Source: Chromatiales bacterium (lineage in GTDB: Bacteria > Pseudomonadota > Gammaproteobacteria > UBA6429). Taken from it: a stretch of 5,839 nt of DNA. The position numbers and the translations under genes are program-made. How positions within the stretch are numbered: the stretch's first letter is position 1; every line of letters starts with the position of its first letter. The stretch spans positions 1 to 5,839 of the forward strand of contig JALTJN010000218.1 of assembly GCA_027076405.1 (NCBI GenBank), in the 5' to 3' direction. This document shows, piece by piece, positions 53-5,839 of this stretch. The notes below the pieces were generated by a model. It was not told where the DNA came from, did not search any database, and saw nothing but the letters and a program-made list of their open reading frames with translations.

Positions 53-90
53 CAGTAGCTTCTCAGTTATTTCAGCGCTACTGACGTAGC
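53..90. repeat. Overlapping small inverted repeats at the stop codon of the fusion gene
   Basis: Three related short arms lie close together: CAGTAGC at 53-59, GCTACTG at 77-83 and GTAGC at 86-90. The middle arm can pair with either the left arm (7 bp, 17-nt loop) or the right arm (5 bp, 4-nt loop TGAC). The cluster spans the TAG stop at 80-78. On the minus-strand transcript it is not followed by a U run, so it is not a normal intrinsic terminator. It may be an RNA hairpin that protects the 3' end of the message, or it may be chance. Confidence 0.3.
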
Positions 91-3000
91 TCTATATTTT
101 CAATAATAACTTCTGTTGATTGCCACTGATCCATATCAATCCTGAATGATCCCATAAAATCCTTTTCAGGGATATTTATATAAATAGAATTGCTACCTTT
201 CTTCACCCCAAAATGCACTTGCTGAGACTCATTAAATTCTGACATATGTGATGTTTGGTAATACAGACTCATTGATTGTTCTTTATTGCTTTCTATAATG
301 ATGTTCAGTATAGGCTCAGAAATTACAGTTTCTGAAACTGCACCAAAAACAACATATGGATCTTCATTCTTTATAGATAACACTTTCAAACCATTTTTCA
401 CAAGACGAATATCTTTAAGCCCATGAGTTTTCAAAACTGATTTTTTCCAGTCATAATCATACCTCTTCTCACTTTTAGAAAACTTAGATTTAAGCTCTAC
501 TCGTCGAACCATCGTTTTAATTACTTGTAAAGTTATCGCTTCCATTTTTCTAAATCTAAACTTTTTTCTCCCCTCAATTTCATAAAGAGCCACATCAAGT
601 TTCATCGGAACAGCCTTCTTTTCAGGCAATGAAAAAGCAAAAAAACCATCCCTATCTTGCACTTTACCAGACTCAAAAACTGCTTGAATTTTATTATTTA
701 CGACGGCAGCAATTATTTTATTATTTACAGGAAAAAGTCCATCATAGATAGTTCCATAAAATGTGATTTCTTCCGGTTTCAATAACCCATCATATGCTAC
801 GTTAAAGTTACTTAGAACATCAGTTGTTTCAGGCATCTCTTTTCCTAGTAACGCCGTATAAACAGAATTTCCAGTATAATTCACTGCAATTTCATGGACA
901 GGAATCGCTTCAGAAAATAGATTCTTTTTTCTAGCTAGAGCTTTCCGAAACAATGCTCTACTATTTTCAAAATATTTTTCATACCCTGGCACCAATTCAA
1001 CTGATCGTGTTTTAACATTATTTTTAATACCTTTTAAATTCTGCCCGACTGATTCCCAAGGACTATTAATTCCAACAACACCGAGAACAGTAGACGAGAT
1101 ATCTAAAGTAGTAACAAATGATGAATTAACACTATTTTCCTTCTGATAAGGGTACTTTATAAATAACGGAACTGAAATAATATTCTTCCAAGAATCCTCA
1201 TTAACAGGAGCCCTCCTACTAAGTCCGTTCTTGCTATAAGACACACCATGATCAGAAGTAACTATTATTAGGCTTTTATCAAACAACTCCCGTTTCTTTA
1301 GCACCCTTAAAAAATCTAGCATTAAGCTATCGACGTATGAAGACTGTTGAATGTAATTATGGTAAACAACATCCAAATGAGATTGCATTACATTTTTTAG
1401 AATAAATGAATTATCAAACAACTTTTTATGTATTGGGCCGCTGTTATAAATATGTCGTCCTAAAGATGTCGTAGTATAAAAGGCATGAGGAATTTGAAAA
1501 TGCAAAAAATTAAACTGGCTATTAACCCCTACGCTCTCCACACGCCTCATCCAGTCGATAAACTGCCTTTCATGCCGGTTTCTATACTTAGGCTTTTTAT
1601 CCTTGAAAAAAACACCAAAATCTTTCCAAGACTGAGGAATACCCCCTATTCTATCTTCAATCCAATCTTTATGACTGATTATATGTATATATAAAGTTAA
1701 AAAATCAGACGCTAGGGAGATTAAATTTACCTCTTGCTTGGCCATTAAATCTGCAGGCAACACCGTGCTATATGCATCCAAAGAGCTGTTAGCTTTAAAC
1801 AATTCGATTAAGTTTTCACCTGGTGCAAGCCCAGCTTTATCTTCAAGCCGTAAATTTCCCGATGCAATGCTAGGCACACTGATATCCGTTAGCCCATGAG
1901 CCGTTAATGCATTCGGAAAATAATCTGCCTGTGTCGCTAATTCTGCAAATCCTGGATATCTGGATCTATCTAGTTGCCCCTCCATGTTCTGAAGAGTTAA
2001 CCCGCTAAACTCATCAAAAATCAACAGAAACACTGGTGTATCATTCATTCCAAGGGATTGCCCCCCCCCTTCGTGAGCATGTTTAAATAAGGTAGATGCA
2101 GGAGAGACAAAAACAAAATGTAAAAGCACCAGTGGAATTATCAAAGATAGATATGACAAGTTTCTCAATAACTGTTTTTTTAAAACAAATACAGCGACAA
2201 TAACAGCGAGCACCAAAGCAATAGAGAATAGAATGTAAGGTTCATATTTGGACGGAAAAATTCCATAACTAATTTTATTTAAAGAATAAAACAGAAATAA
2301 CCCAGAAAACACAAACAAAATTACACTATCAAAAGCTGTTACGAGCCTCACTTGCTTGCACACCCAGCGTAGAATAGTTAACAACAAAAAAGGGGTAACA
2401 CTAATAATTATTAGAAGTGTGATAATAAATTGGCTTGACAAATTATGAGCTGTAAAAAAATTAAACTGGTCGCCTAACACCCCCAAAAGAGGAACTATAA
2501 TAGCAAAATCAGTTACAAACAATAGATAGGCGTACTCTTCGAATTTCTTCCCGATAAAGGTATCTTTAAATCTAAACTTCGACTTTCTTAACTTAAATTT
2601 ATTCTTTAAAATAGATGCTACATTAGAAATAAGCGAGAGCAGGTTATTTGTAGTCCAGTAAATAAGTAATGCCAGCGGCGACTCATACAACAAAACAAGA
2701 AACATCAACGATATGAACAATCCTTGAATTAGCCCCTTACGACTAAACCTAGGCACCGTAAGCAACACCAAAATATTCACCAACGTCATTATAAACGGCA
2801 TCAAGTGAATACTGCTAAACAAAAGCGTATCAGGCTTCCCTAAATCACCTAGAACCGGAACGATACTACCCGATAATTGAGTAAAATCTGTGATCATGAA
2901 ATAAGCTGCAATGAAAAAGGGCAACTGAACACCAAGACTAGCAAGAGATCGAATAGCATAAATAGGGCGGTAGCTGTATCTTGCATAAAGACGTTTTATG

Positions 3001-3248
3001 GCTTCATGCCGTTGTGCCGCGCTATATTTTTTCTTTATTGCGTTAACCTGTGCTGCTAAGACAGACTCTATTTCAGCTTGTTTGGCAACAGAACGACTAG
3101 CATATTTATCCAAAGGCTTGGTTACAACGCGCACAACAAATGCGAGTAATACGAGCCCAATAAAATAAGAGTTTGTAATGCCACTCAAAATAATAAAAGC
3201 GGATTCAAGGAGAAACTCAACCGGTGCGAGTGTATATTGATATATCAT
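78..3248 (-). CDS. YidC/Oxa1-like insertase fused to an LtaS/EptA-type membrane phospho-transferase
   Basis: The 1056-residue protein has four parts. Residues 1-212 resemble the YidC/Oxa1 core: a first membrane helix (about 25-44) ending in FVVRVVTKPL with the conserved groove-type Arg40, a charged cytoplasmic hairpin (45-103), VQLPFFIAAY (107-116), HLMPFIM (148-154) and SPLALLIYWTTNN (190-202). The P1 domain of Gram-negative YidC is absent. A basic linker (213-237) leads to five more hydrophobic helices (about 240-382), as in LtaS and EptA. A periplasmic alkaline-phosphatase/sulfatase-fold domain (about 403-738) follows, with FDEF (411-414), TDISVPS (454-460, Thr454 the probable nucleophile), HFQIPH (583-588) and SDHG (665-668). 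Residues about 825-1056 look beta-rich. By inference it transfers a phosphoglycerol or similar group to a glycan or lipid outside the inner membrane. The ATG lacks a clear ribosome site but fits the usual YidC-core start. The gene lies 24 bp after the glycerophosphotransferase. Domain calls are firm; the reaction is not. Confidence 0.9.
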   Translation of the reverse strand: MIYQYTLAPVEFLLESAFIILSGITNSYFIGLVLLAFVVRVVTKPLDKYASRSVAKQAEIESVLAAQVNAIKKKYSAAQRHEAIKRLYARYSYRPIYAIRSLASLGVQLPFFIAAYFMITDFTQLSGSIVPVLGDLGKPDTLLFSSIHLMPFIMTLVNILVLLTVPRFSRKGLIQGLFISLMFLVLLYESPLALLIYWTTNNLLSLISNVASILKNKFKLRKSKFRFKDTFIGKKFEEYAYLLFVTDFAIIVPLLGVLGDQFNFFTAHNLSSQFIITLLIIISVTPFLLLTILRWVCKQVRLVTAFDSVILFVFSGLFLFYSLNKISYGIFPSKYEPYILFSIALVLAVIVAVFVLKKQLLRNLSYLSLIIPLVLLHFVFVSPASTLFKHAHEGGGQSLGMNDTPVFLLIFDEFSGLTLQNMEGQLDRSRYPGFAELATQADYFPNALTAHGLTDISVPSIASGNLRLEDKAGLAPGENLIELFKANSSLDAYSTVLPADLMAKQEVNLISLASDFLTLYIHIISHKDWIEDRIGGIPQSWKDFGVFFKDKKPKYRNRHERQFIDWMRRVESVGVNSQFNFLHFQIPHAFYTTTSLGRHIYNSGPIHKKLFDNSFILKNVMQSHLDVVYHNYIQQSSYVDSLMLDFLRVLKKRELFDKSLIIVTSDHGVSYSKNGLSRRAPVNEDSWKNIISVPLFIKYPYQKENSVNSSFVTTLDISSTVLGVVGINSPWESVGQNLKGIKNNVKTRSVELVPGYEKYFENSRALFRKALARKKNLFSEAIPVHEIAVNYTGNSVYTALLGKEMPETTDVLSNFNVAYDGLLKPEEITFYGTIYDGLFPVNNKIIAAVVNNKIQAVFESGKVQDRDGFFAFSLPEKKAVPMKLDVALYEIEGRKKFRFRKMEAITLQVIKTMVRRVELKSKFSKSEKRYDYDWKKSVLKTHGLKDIRLVKNGLKVLSIKNEDPYVVFGAVSETVISEPILNIIIESNKEQSMSLYYQTSHMSEFNESQQVHFGVKKGSNSIYINIPEKDFMGSFRIDMDQWQSTEVIIENIELRQ
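2061..2069 (-). repeat. G9 homopolymer inside the fusion gene (candidate phase-variation tract)
   Basis: The plus strand has nine consecutive C, which read as nine G on the coding strand and encode Gly394-Gly395-Gly396 or thereabouts in HEGGGQSLG. It lies just after the last membrane helix and before the catalytic domain, which begins at about residue 403. In the shifted frames a TGA appears at 2047-2045 (one G lost) or 2043-2041 (one G gained), so either change truncates the protein before the enzyme domain. An in-frame ATG (Met401) follows the tract, but a restart there would lack the membrane helices. Runs of this length are well known as slipped-strand contingency sites in surface-structure genes; variation here is inferred. 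Confidence 0.7.
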
Positions 3249-3272: not shown

Positions 3273-4676
3273 TTAATCAATTTCAATTTGGTTCAGCCGT
3301 ATTTGAAGATCACTTACTTCACCACGCAATGAATCCATTTCCTGCTTCAAGGATCGTTCAAACTTTGTCATCGATAATAACTCTGCTTGCTGCTTTAAAT
3401 AAGTCACAATTGGGATAGCTGAGTGACCAAAGTTTGCAACATGCTCATCCCTCAACTCCATAAGTTTATCTGGTGTAAATTGCTCTATTGTCTCCTTAAC
3501 AATCTGGCCAATCATGTGAAGCCTATTTGAATTAACAATCACTCCAATTTTTTCAGACATAATGTCTGGCCATGTTTCTGTCATGTAATCACTTTCAAAA
3601 ACACTACGACTCTGACGCGAAATGGGCAAAGTAATTACAGGCTTTTGATATAAAAAAGCAAAATCAAACCGAATAGAAGAAGCGTCTGAAATGAGAATAT
3701 CTGCTTGCCCCATAGACTGCACCCCAAAGACATTATCGTCCCAAACTACATTATCCAACTCTCTTGTTTCCTCCATCCACTTATCTACAGATTCAGGTTC
3801 AAAAATATAGGAGTGGGGGTGTAACCGGACAATGATATGCAAATTGTCTTTTGCAAGCGCTTTGACAAATCCAGTCCCATATTCCGTAAAGCACCCTTTT
3901 GCTCCCCAAGAGGGAGCTATAAGAATAGTTTTGTTGACTGTCTCTTTAAATTTAGCTTGTAAATCAATTTCATTTTTTTGGCGATTCAGGTCATCAAGAC
4001 ACGGTAGCCCCACCGCAACCAATTCCTTTTTCGGCAAATTCCTAGCCTTCTCAACTAGGCGAATACTATGTTTTTCATGAGGACCCACCATCAAAACAGT
4101 GTCATAAAAATCTAGACTCCCTTTGCGATAGCAAGAGATGTCAACCATAGCATGAAACACATGTACTAAATTTTTAACACCAACTGGCCTCTGCAATGGA
4201 TATCCCTTCGAACCAATATTTGGTGTTGTACTTAACATCACGGGCGACTTAATATTTGCTATTTTCGCAAACCCAAAGCGATTTTTAGCAACATAACTAG
4301 AATGCATGTAGTCACTATCTATCTCAAGTCCTGGGTCATGCACATCCAATGTAATGTAACGAAAATGATTTTTTTGAGAGATAAATTCTTCGACAATGGG
4401 GTGAAAAGTTGTCCAGTACGTTTTGCCTTCACTAAATATCACTGCCATAGATTGTTCGAGACCGTTATTTGCAGCATCAACCTTATTGGAACCCATAGAC
4501 GAACGAGCAAAAATTTTATAAAAGATAGATTTTAAAAAGAATATTGCAGACCCAAAAATCGCTATAAAAAAAGAGGCAACAGCGTTCCCTGATGCAGGAT
4601 CAATATATGCGTAAGCACTTTCAGGTATCAATATTGTAAGGAATAGCAATATTATATGAGGCTTGAAATTATTCAT
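3273..4676 (-). CDS. Membrane-anchored CDP-glycerol glycerophosphotransferase-like protein
   Basis: This 467-residue protein resembles the TagB/TagF glycerophosphotransferases, which transfer glycerol phosphate from CDP-glycerol to a glycan or polymer. The catalytic part (about 75-425) shows IAPSWGAKG (253-261), the RLHPH motif (284-288) and ADILISDASSIRFDFAF (325-341), which matches the family's aDvlItDySSv.fDf signature, followed by KPVI. VFHAMVD (173-179) supplies a further conserved-type His. The N-terminus has a signal-like stretch ending AYA (21-23), then YIDPASG (24-30), then a membrane helix (about 33-50) with basic residues after it, which places the enzyme in the cytoplasm. YIDPGTGS-type segments occur in small membrane proteins near glycan genes, so this looks like a fusion of such an anchor. 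Residues about 433-466 are a likely coiled coil. It starts 39 bases after the methyltransferase stop without a clear ribosome site. Other nucleotide-activated polyol phosphates, such as ribitol, are possible donors. Confidence 0.88.
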   Translation of the reverse strand: MNNFKPHIILLFLTILIPESAYAYIDPASGNAVASFFIAIFGSAIFFLKSIFYKIFARSSMGSNKVDAANNGLEQSMAVIFSEGKTYWTTFHPIVEEFISQKNHFRYITLDVHDPGLEIDSDYMHSSYVAKNRFGFAKIANIKSPVMLSTTPNIGSKGYPLQRPVGVKNLVHVFHAMVDISCYRKGSLDFYDTVLMVGPHEKHSIRLVEKARNLPKKELVAVGLPCLDDLNRQKNEIDLQAKFKETVNKTILIAPSWGAKGCFTEYGTGFVKALAKDNLHIIVRLHPHSYIFEPESVDKWMEETRELDNVVWDDNVFGVQSMGQADILISDASSIRFDFAFLYQKPVITLPISRQSRSVFESDYMTETWPDIMSEKIGVIVNSNRLHMIGQIVKETIEQFTPDKLMELRDEHVANFGHSAIPIVTYLKQQAELLSMTKFERSLKQEMDSLRGEVSDLQIRLNQIEID

Positions 4677-4715: not shown

Positions 4716-5438
4716 CTATATTTTTTCAGCAACAATTCTTATTAAAAAAGGATCTTCATCTTTGTAAGGTGACAAGCCCTGACGTTCTTCTTTTTCTAAT
4801 ACTTTAAAATTTAATTTTTCTATTTTCTTAACAGTTGCATCATAGTCCAAATATCGTCTAAAGTGATTTGTCCCGAAAACTTTGGGTAATGCCTTGTCTT
4901 TCAAACTACGAGCCTCCATAAGAAACAAGCCACCACTTTTTAGTACCTTTGGTATTTGCTGCAAAACAGCTTGCTCTGATTGCTCGTCAATCGAATGAAA
5001 TGTAAATCGAGAATAAACATAATCAAAGTTTACAAAATTTGACAGCTGAGAAAAGTCCTGATTAAAAAAAATCGTATTTTTTACATTCATAAGCTTTAAA
5101 CTTTGAATCGTTTGGGATGATAAATCTAGCGCAGAAACTATTTTACCTTTTTCGGCAAAATAAATAGAATCACGCCCATTACCACACCCTAACTCCAACA
5201 AATTATTCCCTCTTTCAAGATATTTTCCTTCAACATGCCTAGCAAAAGAGGAAGGCTCGTGCACAACTCCATTCAAAGTATAAAATTCATCCCAATAATC
5301 GTGATCGTCTATCAAAGCAATAGTTTTCCTATGTACGTTTAAGAAGAGAAGTATATTATTTGCTAAATCACTGACATTACTCCGCCCACTAGGAGGCCAT
5401 GGTATTATACTATATTGGTGTGTTTTGTACACACTCAC
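4716..5438 (-). CDS. Class I SAM-dependent methyltransferase
   Basis: This 240-residue protein has a Rossmann-type methyltransferase fold. SAM-binding motif I is LLELGCGNGRD (80-90). The acidic residue ending the second strand is Asp105 in ALDLS. NQDFSQL (126-132), FDYVYSRFTFHSI (138-150) and LKSGGLFLMEARS (166-178) give the later core strands. A WDEFY...PSSFA segment (50-65) precedes the fold and is typical of small methyltransferases of the TehB/TPMT-like type. The C-terminal DPFLIRIVAEK is the usual last strand. There is no signal or membrane helix, so it is cytoplasmic. It is the first gene of the three-gene run and could methylate a sugar or cap a glycan; the substrate is unknown. The GTG start follows an in-frame TAA by two codons and has no ribosome site. 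The first 35 residues look atypical, and no in-frame ATG exists before Met117, so the true start is uncertain. Confidence 0.88.
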   Translation of the reverse strand: MSVYKTHQYSIIPWPPSGRSNVSDLANNILLFLNVHRKTIALIDDHDYWDEFYTLNGVVHEPSSFARHVEGKYLERGNNLLELGCGNGRDSIYFAEKGKIVSALDLSSQTIQSLKLMNVKNTIFFNQDFSQLSNFVNFDYVYSRFTFHSIDEQSEQAVLQQIPKVLKSGGLFLMEARSLKDKALPKVFGTNHFRRYLDYDATVKKIEKLNFKVLEKEERQGLSPYKDEDPFLIRIVAEKI

Positions 5439-5716
5439 TCGCAGTTATAAAATTGAAACACTAAGGCAAGGCGTATTTTTCTAACATTATTAATCCAGAA
5501 AACAAGCTTAATCATCTACCTAAAAAGACTAAAGCATTTTCACAAAGCAAACTTAAACGTCACATCGTGACTCCAATAAAAACTTAACTAACACATGAAA
5601 TAGTAATTCAACACCAACCTTAAGCCAGATGAAACATATTTAATAAGCTTGACTTAAAATATACAACACCTTAAAAACACGTTTTTATCCAGACCTTTAA
5701 TGAAATTCTCAAATAG
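5439..5716. other. AT-rich intergenic gap between glycosyltransferase and methyltransferase
   Basis: All frames are closed by stops and I see no RNA gene. Two small palindromes are present: GTCAC-ATC-GTGAC at 5559-5571 and TAAAAAC-AC-GTTTTTA at 5672-5687. Neither is a convincing terminator, since the first has no T run and the second is almost all A and T with a 2-nt centre. A TATAAC hexamer at 5449-5444 lies just before the methyltransferase GTG but has no good -35 partner. A promoter for the three-gene operon would be expected here, yet I cannot place one. Confidence 0.5.
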
Positions 5717-5839
5717 TTAATTTAGCCTGGGAGGCCATGCGTATGAAAAGTCCTCATAATCCAACGTTAAATTAGGGCTATAAGCAGGGTCATTTTTAAG
5801 AACCCCTCCCCACTTGTCCTTCATATATAAAACGCCCTG
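5717..5839 (-). CDS. Glycosyltransferase family 2, C-terminal end (partial)
   Basis: The frame runs open from the right edge to a TAA at 5719-5717 and gives 40 residues, ending in AYAWPPRLN-like order (FSYAWPPRLN). The fragment contains MKDKWG, NDPAYSPNLTLDYEDF and AWPPR. I recognise this as the usual tail of GT2 glycosyltransferases in O-antigen and capsule loci, where a DP.YNPNL...DF..A.PPR ending is common. Such enzymes act at the cytoplasmic face, adding a sugar from a nucleotide-sugar donor to a growing glycan. The catalytic GT-A domain lies outside the window, so donor and acceptor cannot be read. It lies 278 bp upstream of the methyltransferase on the same strand. Confidence 0.8.
   Translation of the reverse strand, partial: QGVLYMKDKWGGVLKNDPAYSPNLTLDYEDFSYAWPPRLN

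Follow-up and report, generated by a model that had tools for sequence, protein, structure and literature searches.

Insertases of the YidC/Oxa1/Alb3 superfamily are organised around a five-helix membrane core, with a cytoplasmic hairpin, a groove arginine position and aromatic residues in the last helix. All these features are recognised at the N-terminus of a protein of 1056 residues encoded on contig JALTJN010000218.1 of a Chromatiales bacterium (assembly GCA_027076405.1; the window is the whole stretch analysed, 5,839 nucleotides), where the core is followed in the same chain by a phosphatase-fold domain predicted to lie outside the cell. Unlike the known insertases, the fusion is an additional copy in related genomes, which encode a canonical YidC at another locus; it is moreover joined to an enzyme and has lost the groove arginine in its distant relatives. 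Together with a TagF-like neighbour, it may form a module decorating the cell surface with phosphate or phosphonate groups. Sulfatases and alkaline phosphatase are unmentioned in the available part of a paper on archaeal YidC (PMC5898192). No description of the present layout was found in the open-access literature, subscription journals lying mostly outside that search.

Groups activated by cytidine diphosphate (CDP) or cytidine monophosphate (CMP) are made inside the cell, and phosphatase-fold transferases work outside, where they take the head groups of membrane lipids; LtaS, EptA and OpgB transfer groups from phospholipids. Unlike proteins of the LtaS, EptA, MCR, OpgB and YejM types, the fusion carries in addition an N-terminal YidC domain and a C-terminal beta-rich part. 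The neighbouring protein has its Glyphos_transf domain in common with the TagF/TarF CDP-glycerol glycerophosphotransferases, to which it adds a membrane hairpin bearing the motif A-Y-[IL]-D-P, and its score with the TarF equivalog model is low. O-antigen glucosylation by GtrA, GtrB and GtrC would be comparable in its logic of inside charging, passage and outside transfer, with the difference that the lipid intermediate of the fusion module is a proposal. To our knowledge, the Gtr system, with its GtrA flippase, has no protein family in common with the module. The phosphonate tailoring operons described in PMC6697681 resemble one of the related loci (region L054) through the Ppd, PhnW and nucleotidyltransferase genes found there upstream of a gene trio detailed below. 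In the available part of that paper, tailoring after C-P bond formation is called enigmatic, a nucleotidyl activation step is added, and LicD-like phosphotransferases or glycosyltransferases are named; a text search of the same part returned neither 'YidC' nor 'insertase', 'CDP-glycerol' or 'sulfatase'. Each of the three protein families was known before, as was the task of surface phospho-decoration.

Domain organisation of the fusion protein

The YidC assignment comes from the Pfam model 60KD_IMP, which matches residues 28-210 with an E value of 1.6e-18 (67.6 bits vs a cut-off of 35); the narrower NCBI model yidC_oxa1_cterm gives 60.9 bits, below its cut-off of 84.3. A sequence search against solved structures leads from this part to the YidC of T. 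maritima and, when the domain is folded alone, the predicted structure is a complete five-helix YidC fold. The fold search with the whole protein is dominated by the phosphatase fold, with no YidC among the best 50 rows. Five further helices are modelled ahead of the phosphatase-fold domain (residues 231-260, 272-299, 303-326, 336-357 and 361-380), in agreement with hydropathy. The Pfam Sulfatase model then covers residues 431-727 (E 3.8e-16, 59.7 bits vs a cut-off of 25). Solved structures point for this enzyme part to LtaS-type proteins of B. subtilis, and in the fold search sulfatases and phosphonate monoester hydrolases rank at the top. 

The initial annotation had read from this DNA a single chain with a YidC core, a basic linker, five helices and an outside LtaS/EptA-type domain, and had expected the YidC helix arrangement to be visible in a predicted structure. 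Both Pfam matches lie over their cut-offs in one chain, the five-helix core is complete in the model, and the overall layout agrees with the profile, solved-structure and fold comparisons. The LtaS/EptA label holds for the broad type and fails for LtaS in the strict sense, the NCBIfam LtaS equivalog giving 37.8 bits, far under its cut-off of 970. The gene had also been drawn too short: the interval 1035-3248 covers only the first 738 residues of a 1056-residue frame, which spans 78-3248. The 286 residues at the C-terminus are mostly beta in the model, and none of these 286 columns is invariant in A1, an alignment of 38 rows that covers close and middle relatives. This beta-rich part (81-938 of the window) is largely absent from the distant fusions of alignment A2.

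Residues D412, E413, H588, D666 and H667 are invariant in all 38 rows of A1. The nucleophile position, judged from the motif, is T454, which is Thr in 37/38 and Ser in 1/38 rows of A1, and Thr in 26/29 and Ser in 3/29 rows of a second alignment covering a wide set. In this wide alignment D666-H667-G668 is invariant (29/29), D412 is Asp in 26/29 and Glu in 3/29, H588 is His in 26/29, and the position of E413 is mostly Arg. A published parallel is provided by T300 of LtaS and T280 of EptA with their Asp and His ligands (available part of PMC7576196). By this analogy, the site looks like that of a phosphotransferase, and no formylglycine Cys/Ser signature of sulfatases is seen.

The groove of the YidC domain

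Arg40, which had been singled out early in helix 1, aligns with the groove arginine of canonical YidC copies and is well kept in the window's group (A1: R 37/38, K 1/38). In four rows further out (P0043-P0046) the position is R in three and Y in one. It is replaced in 49/49 distant fusions with a YidC domain, by N (26), S (14) or T (9); these 49 were taken from 55 rows (P0047-P0103) after exclusion of six without a YidC domain (3 F, 2 L, 1 H). Still further out (P0224-P0340), it is N in 117/117. The N, S or T of the distant fusions contrasts with the strictly conserved positive charge ascribed to the groove of all YidC homologues in the available text of PMC8920935.

Across the wide alignment, the residue matched to Y517 of E. 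coli YidC is Trp in 29/29 fusions. The match was made by aligning the Tyr-Trp of the window with the Tyr-Tyr of T. maritima YidC, and also relies on what we take to be the E. coli sequence around position 517. According to the accessible part of PMC8920935, Arg366 of E. coli YidC is dispensable in mutants whose residue 517 is aromatic or polar. With Trp at the equivalent position, the groove of distant fusions may therefore still be wet and functional without a positive charge. The aromatic pair of the last core helix, Y197-W198, is likewise kept in 29/29. On the cytoplasmic side, H81, R86, Y88, R90, Y93 and R100 of the hairpin and second helix are invariant in A1 (38/38), where the second helix reaches a mean identity of 0.85; in the wide alignment Y93 is kept in 29/29 and Y88 in 27/29, H81, R86 and R90 being variable.

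A recurrent paralogue of YidC

The architecture recurs in other proteins, a result that the initial annotation had named as support. In a list of 103 proteins, both domains are present in the full-length fusions P0001-P0033; the window itself encodes P0001, to which the 32 others (P0002-P0033) are 44-64% identical. P0038-P0041 are shorter fusions at 34-35% identity, and a YidC domain is found in many of the remaining listed proteins, in some along with a recognised Sulfatase match. Two distinct fusion proteins, P0038 and P0041, come from contigs of the same size (18073), so that one contig may carry two copies. A wide-profile search gave 4856 matches; among the best 120, the YidC domain is always present and mostly accompanied by a Sulfatase match, and the remainder of the 4856 may include canonical YidC. 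Taxa among the matches listed are Nitrotoga, Oceanicoccus, Halioglobus, Pseudohongiellaceae, Ramlibacter, Treponema, Saccharofermentans and Agathobacter, together with Brachyspira, represented by a partial match without Sulfatase. 

Fusions are rare in samples of genomes: 4/369 in a class sample and 1/398 in a phylum sample, where only the Nitrotoga genome G001 has a fusion at E 1e-30 and where TagF-like matches were limited to G001 and a weak one in G612, with no further cases among the 398 genomes. In G001 the fusion coexists with a canonical YidC (562-residue frame, E 3e-61). A comparable pair is found in 12/12 further genomes with a fusion or a divergent YidC: next to the divergent copy, each has a single canonical one, with an E value of at most 4.4e-63. 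In the relatives' genomes, the fusion or divergent YidC is thus a paralogue and not the housekeeping YidC.

In an unrooted tree of 58 YidC parts, 43 of them from fusions picked for spread, one branch (97/82) sets all the fusions apart and another (100/100) the six canonical YidC, with eight stand-alone YidC paralogues in between. Since all fusions share one side of a branch, they may derive from a single fusion event. Spread by viruses or plasmids was considered and rejected: 58 pattern matches on viral contigs included no relative of the fusion, and the plasmid records gave partial matches only, seven of them weak and confined to the sulfatase part and 20 confined to the YidC part of a distant fusion.

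The TagF-like neighbour

In the window, the fusion is the last of a run of three minus-strand genes, after a methyltransferase and a TagF-like gene. The same order is found in Nitrotoga (G001), where the locus continues with an ATP-binding cassette (ABC) transporter ATPase bearing a Wzt_C domain and also contains genes judged by eye to be sugar-biosynthesis-like and glycosyltransferase-like. In two other genomes (L025, L026) the TagF-like gene overlaps the start of a fusion of the distant type. 

The TagF-like protein matches Pfam Glyphos_transf (E 1.8e-10, 40.7 bits vs a cut-off of 22.1) and scores 19.5 bits with the TarF equivalog (cut-off 550). It begins with two hydrophobic segments (residues 7-25 and 33-51). 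Fusion-linked TagF-like proteins start with such a membrane hairpin, in which A-Y-[IL]-D-P or a close variant of it is found; Y, D and P are invariant among 15 aligned proteins, and the looser pattern [YF]-[ILVMF]-[DN]-P occurs within 60 residues in 111/120 TagF-like relatives (best 120 of 754). Among the nine without the motif, several seem shortened and two start with a different hydrophobic stretch. Six spellings of the hairpin motif were searched for in the open-access literature, and no mention was found.

An indirect measure of co-occurrence was obtained by comparing the length of the longest contig, used as a fingerprint, between the 103 fusion matches and the best 120 of 754 TagF-like matches. 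Identical fingerprints were found for 26/103 fusions and for 23/42 of the first 42, compared with a chance mean of 0.45 and maximum of 3 (1000 trials, jittered lengths). Among these 26 agreements, one TagF-like partner is common to two fusions.

The same parts as separate genes

Within the 369 genomes of the class sample, 12 have a TagF-like match (E 1e-20) and 13 a fusion or divergent YidC (E 7.6e-22 or better), a figure from which variants may be missing, at most two candidates per genome having been scored. Both are present together in 11 genomes, within 12 kb of each other in nine of these; the hypergeometric value is 2.5e-18, and such values are guides only because related genomes do not count as independent observations. 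A TagF-like match that begins in the hairpin (A4 position 2-3) is seen in four genomes, exactly those with a fusion. The seven other shared genomes carry a stand-alone YidC paralogue, and the hairpin is absent from their TagF-like proteins (7/7). In these split systems the paralogues keep the YidC core. Five of the seven were run against Pfam, the YidC periplasmic domain being over cut-off in L008, L010 and L016, below it in L009 and unmatched in L013 (L014 and L015 lay outside the comparison). A nearby phosphatase-type gene is over the Pfam cut-off in L054, L056, L058 and L055; in L058 (G197) the YidC gene lies on a separate contig. A 631-residue protein near the YidC variant of L053, thought to be a transferase, has no Pfam match and was set aside.

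The association was replicated in an order sample of 97 genomes, from the order of G369, the sole positive genome common to both samples. Sixteen of these genomes have a TagF-like gene, 15 a YidC variant and 14 both (hypergeometric 6e-14, or 3.6e-13 without G369), with the two genes within 12 kb in 13/14. Sixteen regions were read (L091-L106). In 10/16 of them (L091, L092, L094-L101) the TagF-like gene, the phosphatase-fold enzyme and the YidC paralogue are consecutive separate genes, as they are in L054 of the class sample. The 16 regions contain 14 flagged phosphatase-type genes, of which 10 were run against Pfam: all 10 match Sulfatase and 9/10 match DUF3413, which we take to be the membrane part of YejM. 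Among the other regions, L093 (G760) has a YidC gene and opposite-strand frames called over the TagF-like match. L102 (G790) has its phosphatase-type gene in the opposite orientation, and a YidC match 7 kb off contains a stop. L103 (G837) has a phosphatase-type gene and a YidC variant spread over two frames (5473-6938), with no TagF-like match; a frame starting like that of G837 runs off the contig end in L105 (G820), and in L106 (G838) the YidC gene and the TagF-like match are on different contigs.

Phosphonate genes

About 5 kb before the trio of L054 lie genes for phosphonopyruvate decarboxylase and aminoethylphosphonate transaminase, both reaching the NCBI cut-offs, and a nucleotidyltransferase. 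In L056, genes for phosphoenolpyruvate (PEP) mutase and phosphonopyruvate decarboxylase precede the TagF-like gene, and in several other loci look-alikes of the L054 phosphonate genes, compared over their first residues only, stand directly before the trio. PEP mutase is over cut-off in 19/97 genomes of the order sample, including 15/16 with a TagF-like gene and 14/15 with a YidC variant, and in 14/15 no more than 12 kb separate it from the TagF-like gene. In the first set it is over cut-off in 4/14 genomes (G326, G358, G197, G369), and G229 has no PEP mutase match. L054 (106-12637), L091, L092 and L094-L101 are candidate machinery for the late tailoring of aminoethylphosphonate. L051, L052 and L055 are split systems with no PEP mutase over cut-off, where weak Sulfatase-type membrane proteins and a nearby nucleotidyltransferase-like gene suggest another activated group.

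Proposed mechanism and alternative explanations

The composition of the module and the association of its genes are direct observations. We would give an even chance to the reading in which the fusion supplies the membrane-embedded and external half of a module decorating the surface with phosphate or phosphonate. A TagF-like enzyme would transfer, on the inside, an X-phosphate or X-phosphonate from CDP-X or CMP-X to a membrane acceptor; the hydrophilic groove of the YidC domain would bring the lipid-linked X, or the acceptor, to the outer leaflet; and the phosphatase-fold domain would transfer X, through a phospho-threonine intermediate, to a surface glycan or lipid. X would probably be a phosphonate where PEP mutase is present, and glycerol phosphate is a first guess for the window's close group. 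That the YidC branch is itself the membrane-passage unit, handing a TagF-charged, lipid-linked phosphate or phosphonate to the outside transferase, is put forward tentatively, as a possibility. A groove accessible from both membrane and cytoplasm, in a protein encoded beside the outside enzyme or fused to it, would suit such a transfer. In simulations, insertases that have a hydrophilic path appear able to move lipids (PMC10462046, a paper on MTCH2 with no mention of YidC in its available part).

Several observations weigh against this surface-decoration reading. The fusion and the TagF-like gene of G117 are on different contigs. Some genomes are unmatched, with a TagF-like gene only (G344) or a YidC variant only (G141 and G109), and L104 (G824) has TagF-like and phosphatase-fold genes with no YidC variant in the search. 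In G141 a Sulfatase-domain gene lies in the same region as the YidC variant. G109 has dispersed parts, with a 217-residue stand-alone YidC-like protein (L027 9007-9660) and, elsewhere, a 99-residue hairpin protein beside a Sulfatase-domain protein (L033 1477-3151). In L051 and L052 the phosphatase-type neighbour scores under the Pfam cut-off, and in L053 no such gene is recognised. As regards phosphonate, G822, G811 and G767 have PEP mutase with neither TagF-like gene nor YidC variant; these three may use another tailoring route. A PEP mutase match is missing from two of the four fusion genomes, G001 (Nitrotoga) and G117, and no match reaches the cut-off in G098, so that the phosphonate link is not transferable to the window. 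Phosphonate is a likely substrate in part of the family, though not the sole one; for the window it would be a supposition. Lastly, the idea that the groove serves the enzyme, already advanced in the initial annotation, fits the paralogue status and the linkage with TagF-like and transferase genes, but the association is compatible with lipid passage, protein insertion and scaffolding by the YidC part alike.

The YidC domain could instead be a protein insertase dedicated to the TagF-like hairpin, and perhaps to the fusion's own helices, which would assist assembly of the complex with no lipid moved. Its fold is complete, the groove arginine is kept in the window's group, and the N, S or T found elsewhere is accompanied by the Trp at the 517-equivalent position (29/29) that would render Arg366 dispensable (from the part of PMC8920935 cited above). 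The hairpin is also present in the TagF-like proteins of the four class-sample fusion genomes and missing from those of the seven split systems. Yet a YidC paralogue is retained in all seven split systems, where the TagF-like partner is devoid of a hairpin; hairpin insertion is thus not the shared task, which weakens it as the common function of all YidC variants. The housekeeping YidC is present anyway. Such a dedicated insertase is in our opinion somewhat unlikely.

If nothing passes the membrane, the YidC domain might also act as a docking and lipid-binding scaffold, holding the TagF-like enzyme inside and the transferase outside. The conserved cytoplasmic hairpin and second helix in A1 are what a docking surface would show, and the altered groove residue of distant fusions points the same way. 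The conservation of Y197-W198 in 29/29 and the retention of the YidC core by split paralogues argue in the other direction, and we regard a pure scaffold as unlikely.

A catabolic sulfatase or phosphodiesterase with a YidC-like anchor would match the best fold hits, namely sulfatases and phosphonate monoester hydrolases. This is very improbable, given the Thr in place of the formylglycine Cys/Ser at the nucleophile position and the linkage with genes for TagF-like enzymes, for CDP/CMP groups and for glycan export; genes of uptake or degradation were not noticed in these loci, where no search was aimed at them. A frameshift, misassembly or chance fusion is ruled out for practical purposes by recurrence in 32 relatives at 44-64% identity, four more at 34-35% and four class-sample genomes, and by the grouping of the fusions in one clade.

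We know of no insertase-family protein shown to serve lipid-linked donors. If the surface-decoration reading with lipid passage is true, the insertase fold gains a second trade, of a kind new to the superfamily, and the module would offer a natural test of the simulation-based idea that insertases move lipids (available part of PMC10462046). It would also provide candidate enzymes for the steps following nucleotidyl activation, which are the last steps of phosphonate tailoring. The gene order and the existence of a split form make the module directly testable. A very large number of database proteins with this layout may sit under the name 'YidC insertase'.

Feature coordinates in the window

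Table 1. Features of the fusion gene and of its neighbours (window positions)
Feature	Position	Strand	Basis
Fusion gene, 1056 residues: YidC domain, five-helix membrane part, phosphatase-fold domain, C-terminal beta-rich part	78..3248	-	
YidC/Oxa1 domain, residues 1-217; N-terminal helix 2-25 and five core helices	2598..3248	-	
Arg40 codon, groove arginine position	3129..3131	-	
Basic linker and five further membrane helices, residues 218-390	2079..2597	-	Model, hydropathy
Outside alkaline-phosphatase-fold transferase domain (predicted), residues 400-770	939..2051	-	Predicted
Thr454 codon, presumed nucleophile	1887..1889	-	Conservation; analogy with LtaS T300 / EptA T280
Asp666-His667 codons, presumed metal ligands	1248..1253	-	Conservation; aligned with LtaS Asp-His
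C-terminal part, mostly beta, poorly conserved, residues 771-1056	81..938	-	Model, alignment
TagF-like gene, 467 residues, upstream, 24 bases before the fusion gene	3273..4676	-	Pfam Glyphos_transf
N-terminal membrane hairpin of the TagF-like protein, motif A-Y-I-D-P-x-S-G	4497..4676	-	Hydropathy, 15-protein alignment
S-adenosylmethionine (SAM)-dependent methyltransferase, first in the run	4716..5438	-	Pfam Methyltransf_25, E 5.3e-13

A search for RNA elements in the window gave a single match, at chance level, and no known leader of polysaccharide operons was found. Scanning of positions 5400-5839 gave two promoter-like sites, for 1.7 expected, and one terminator-like site, for 0.2 expected.

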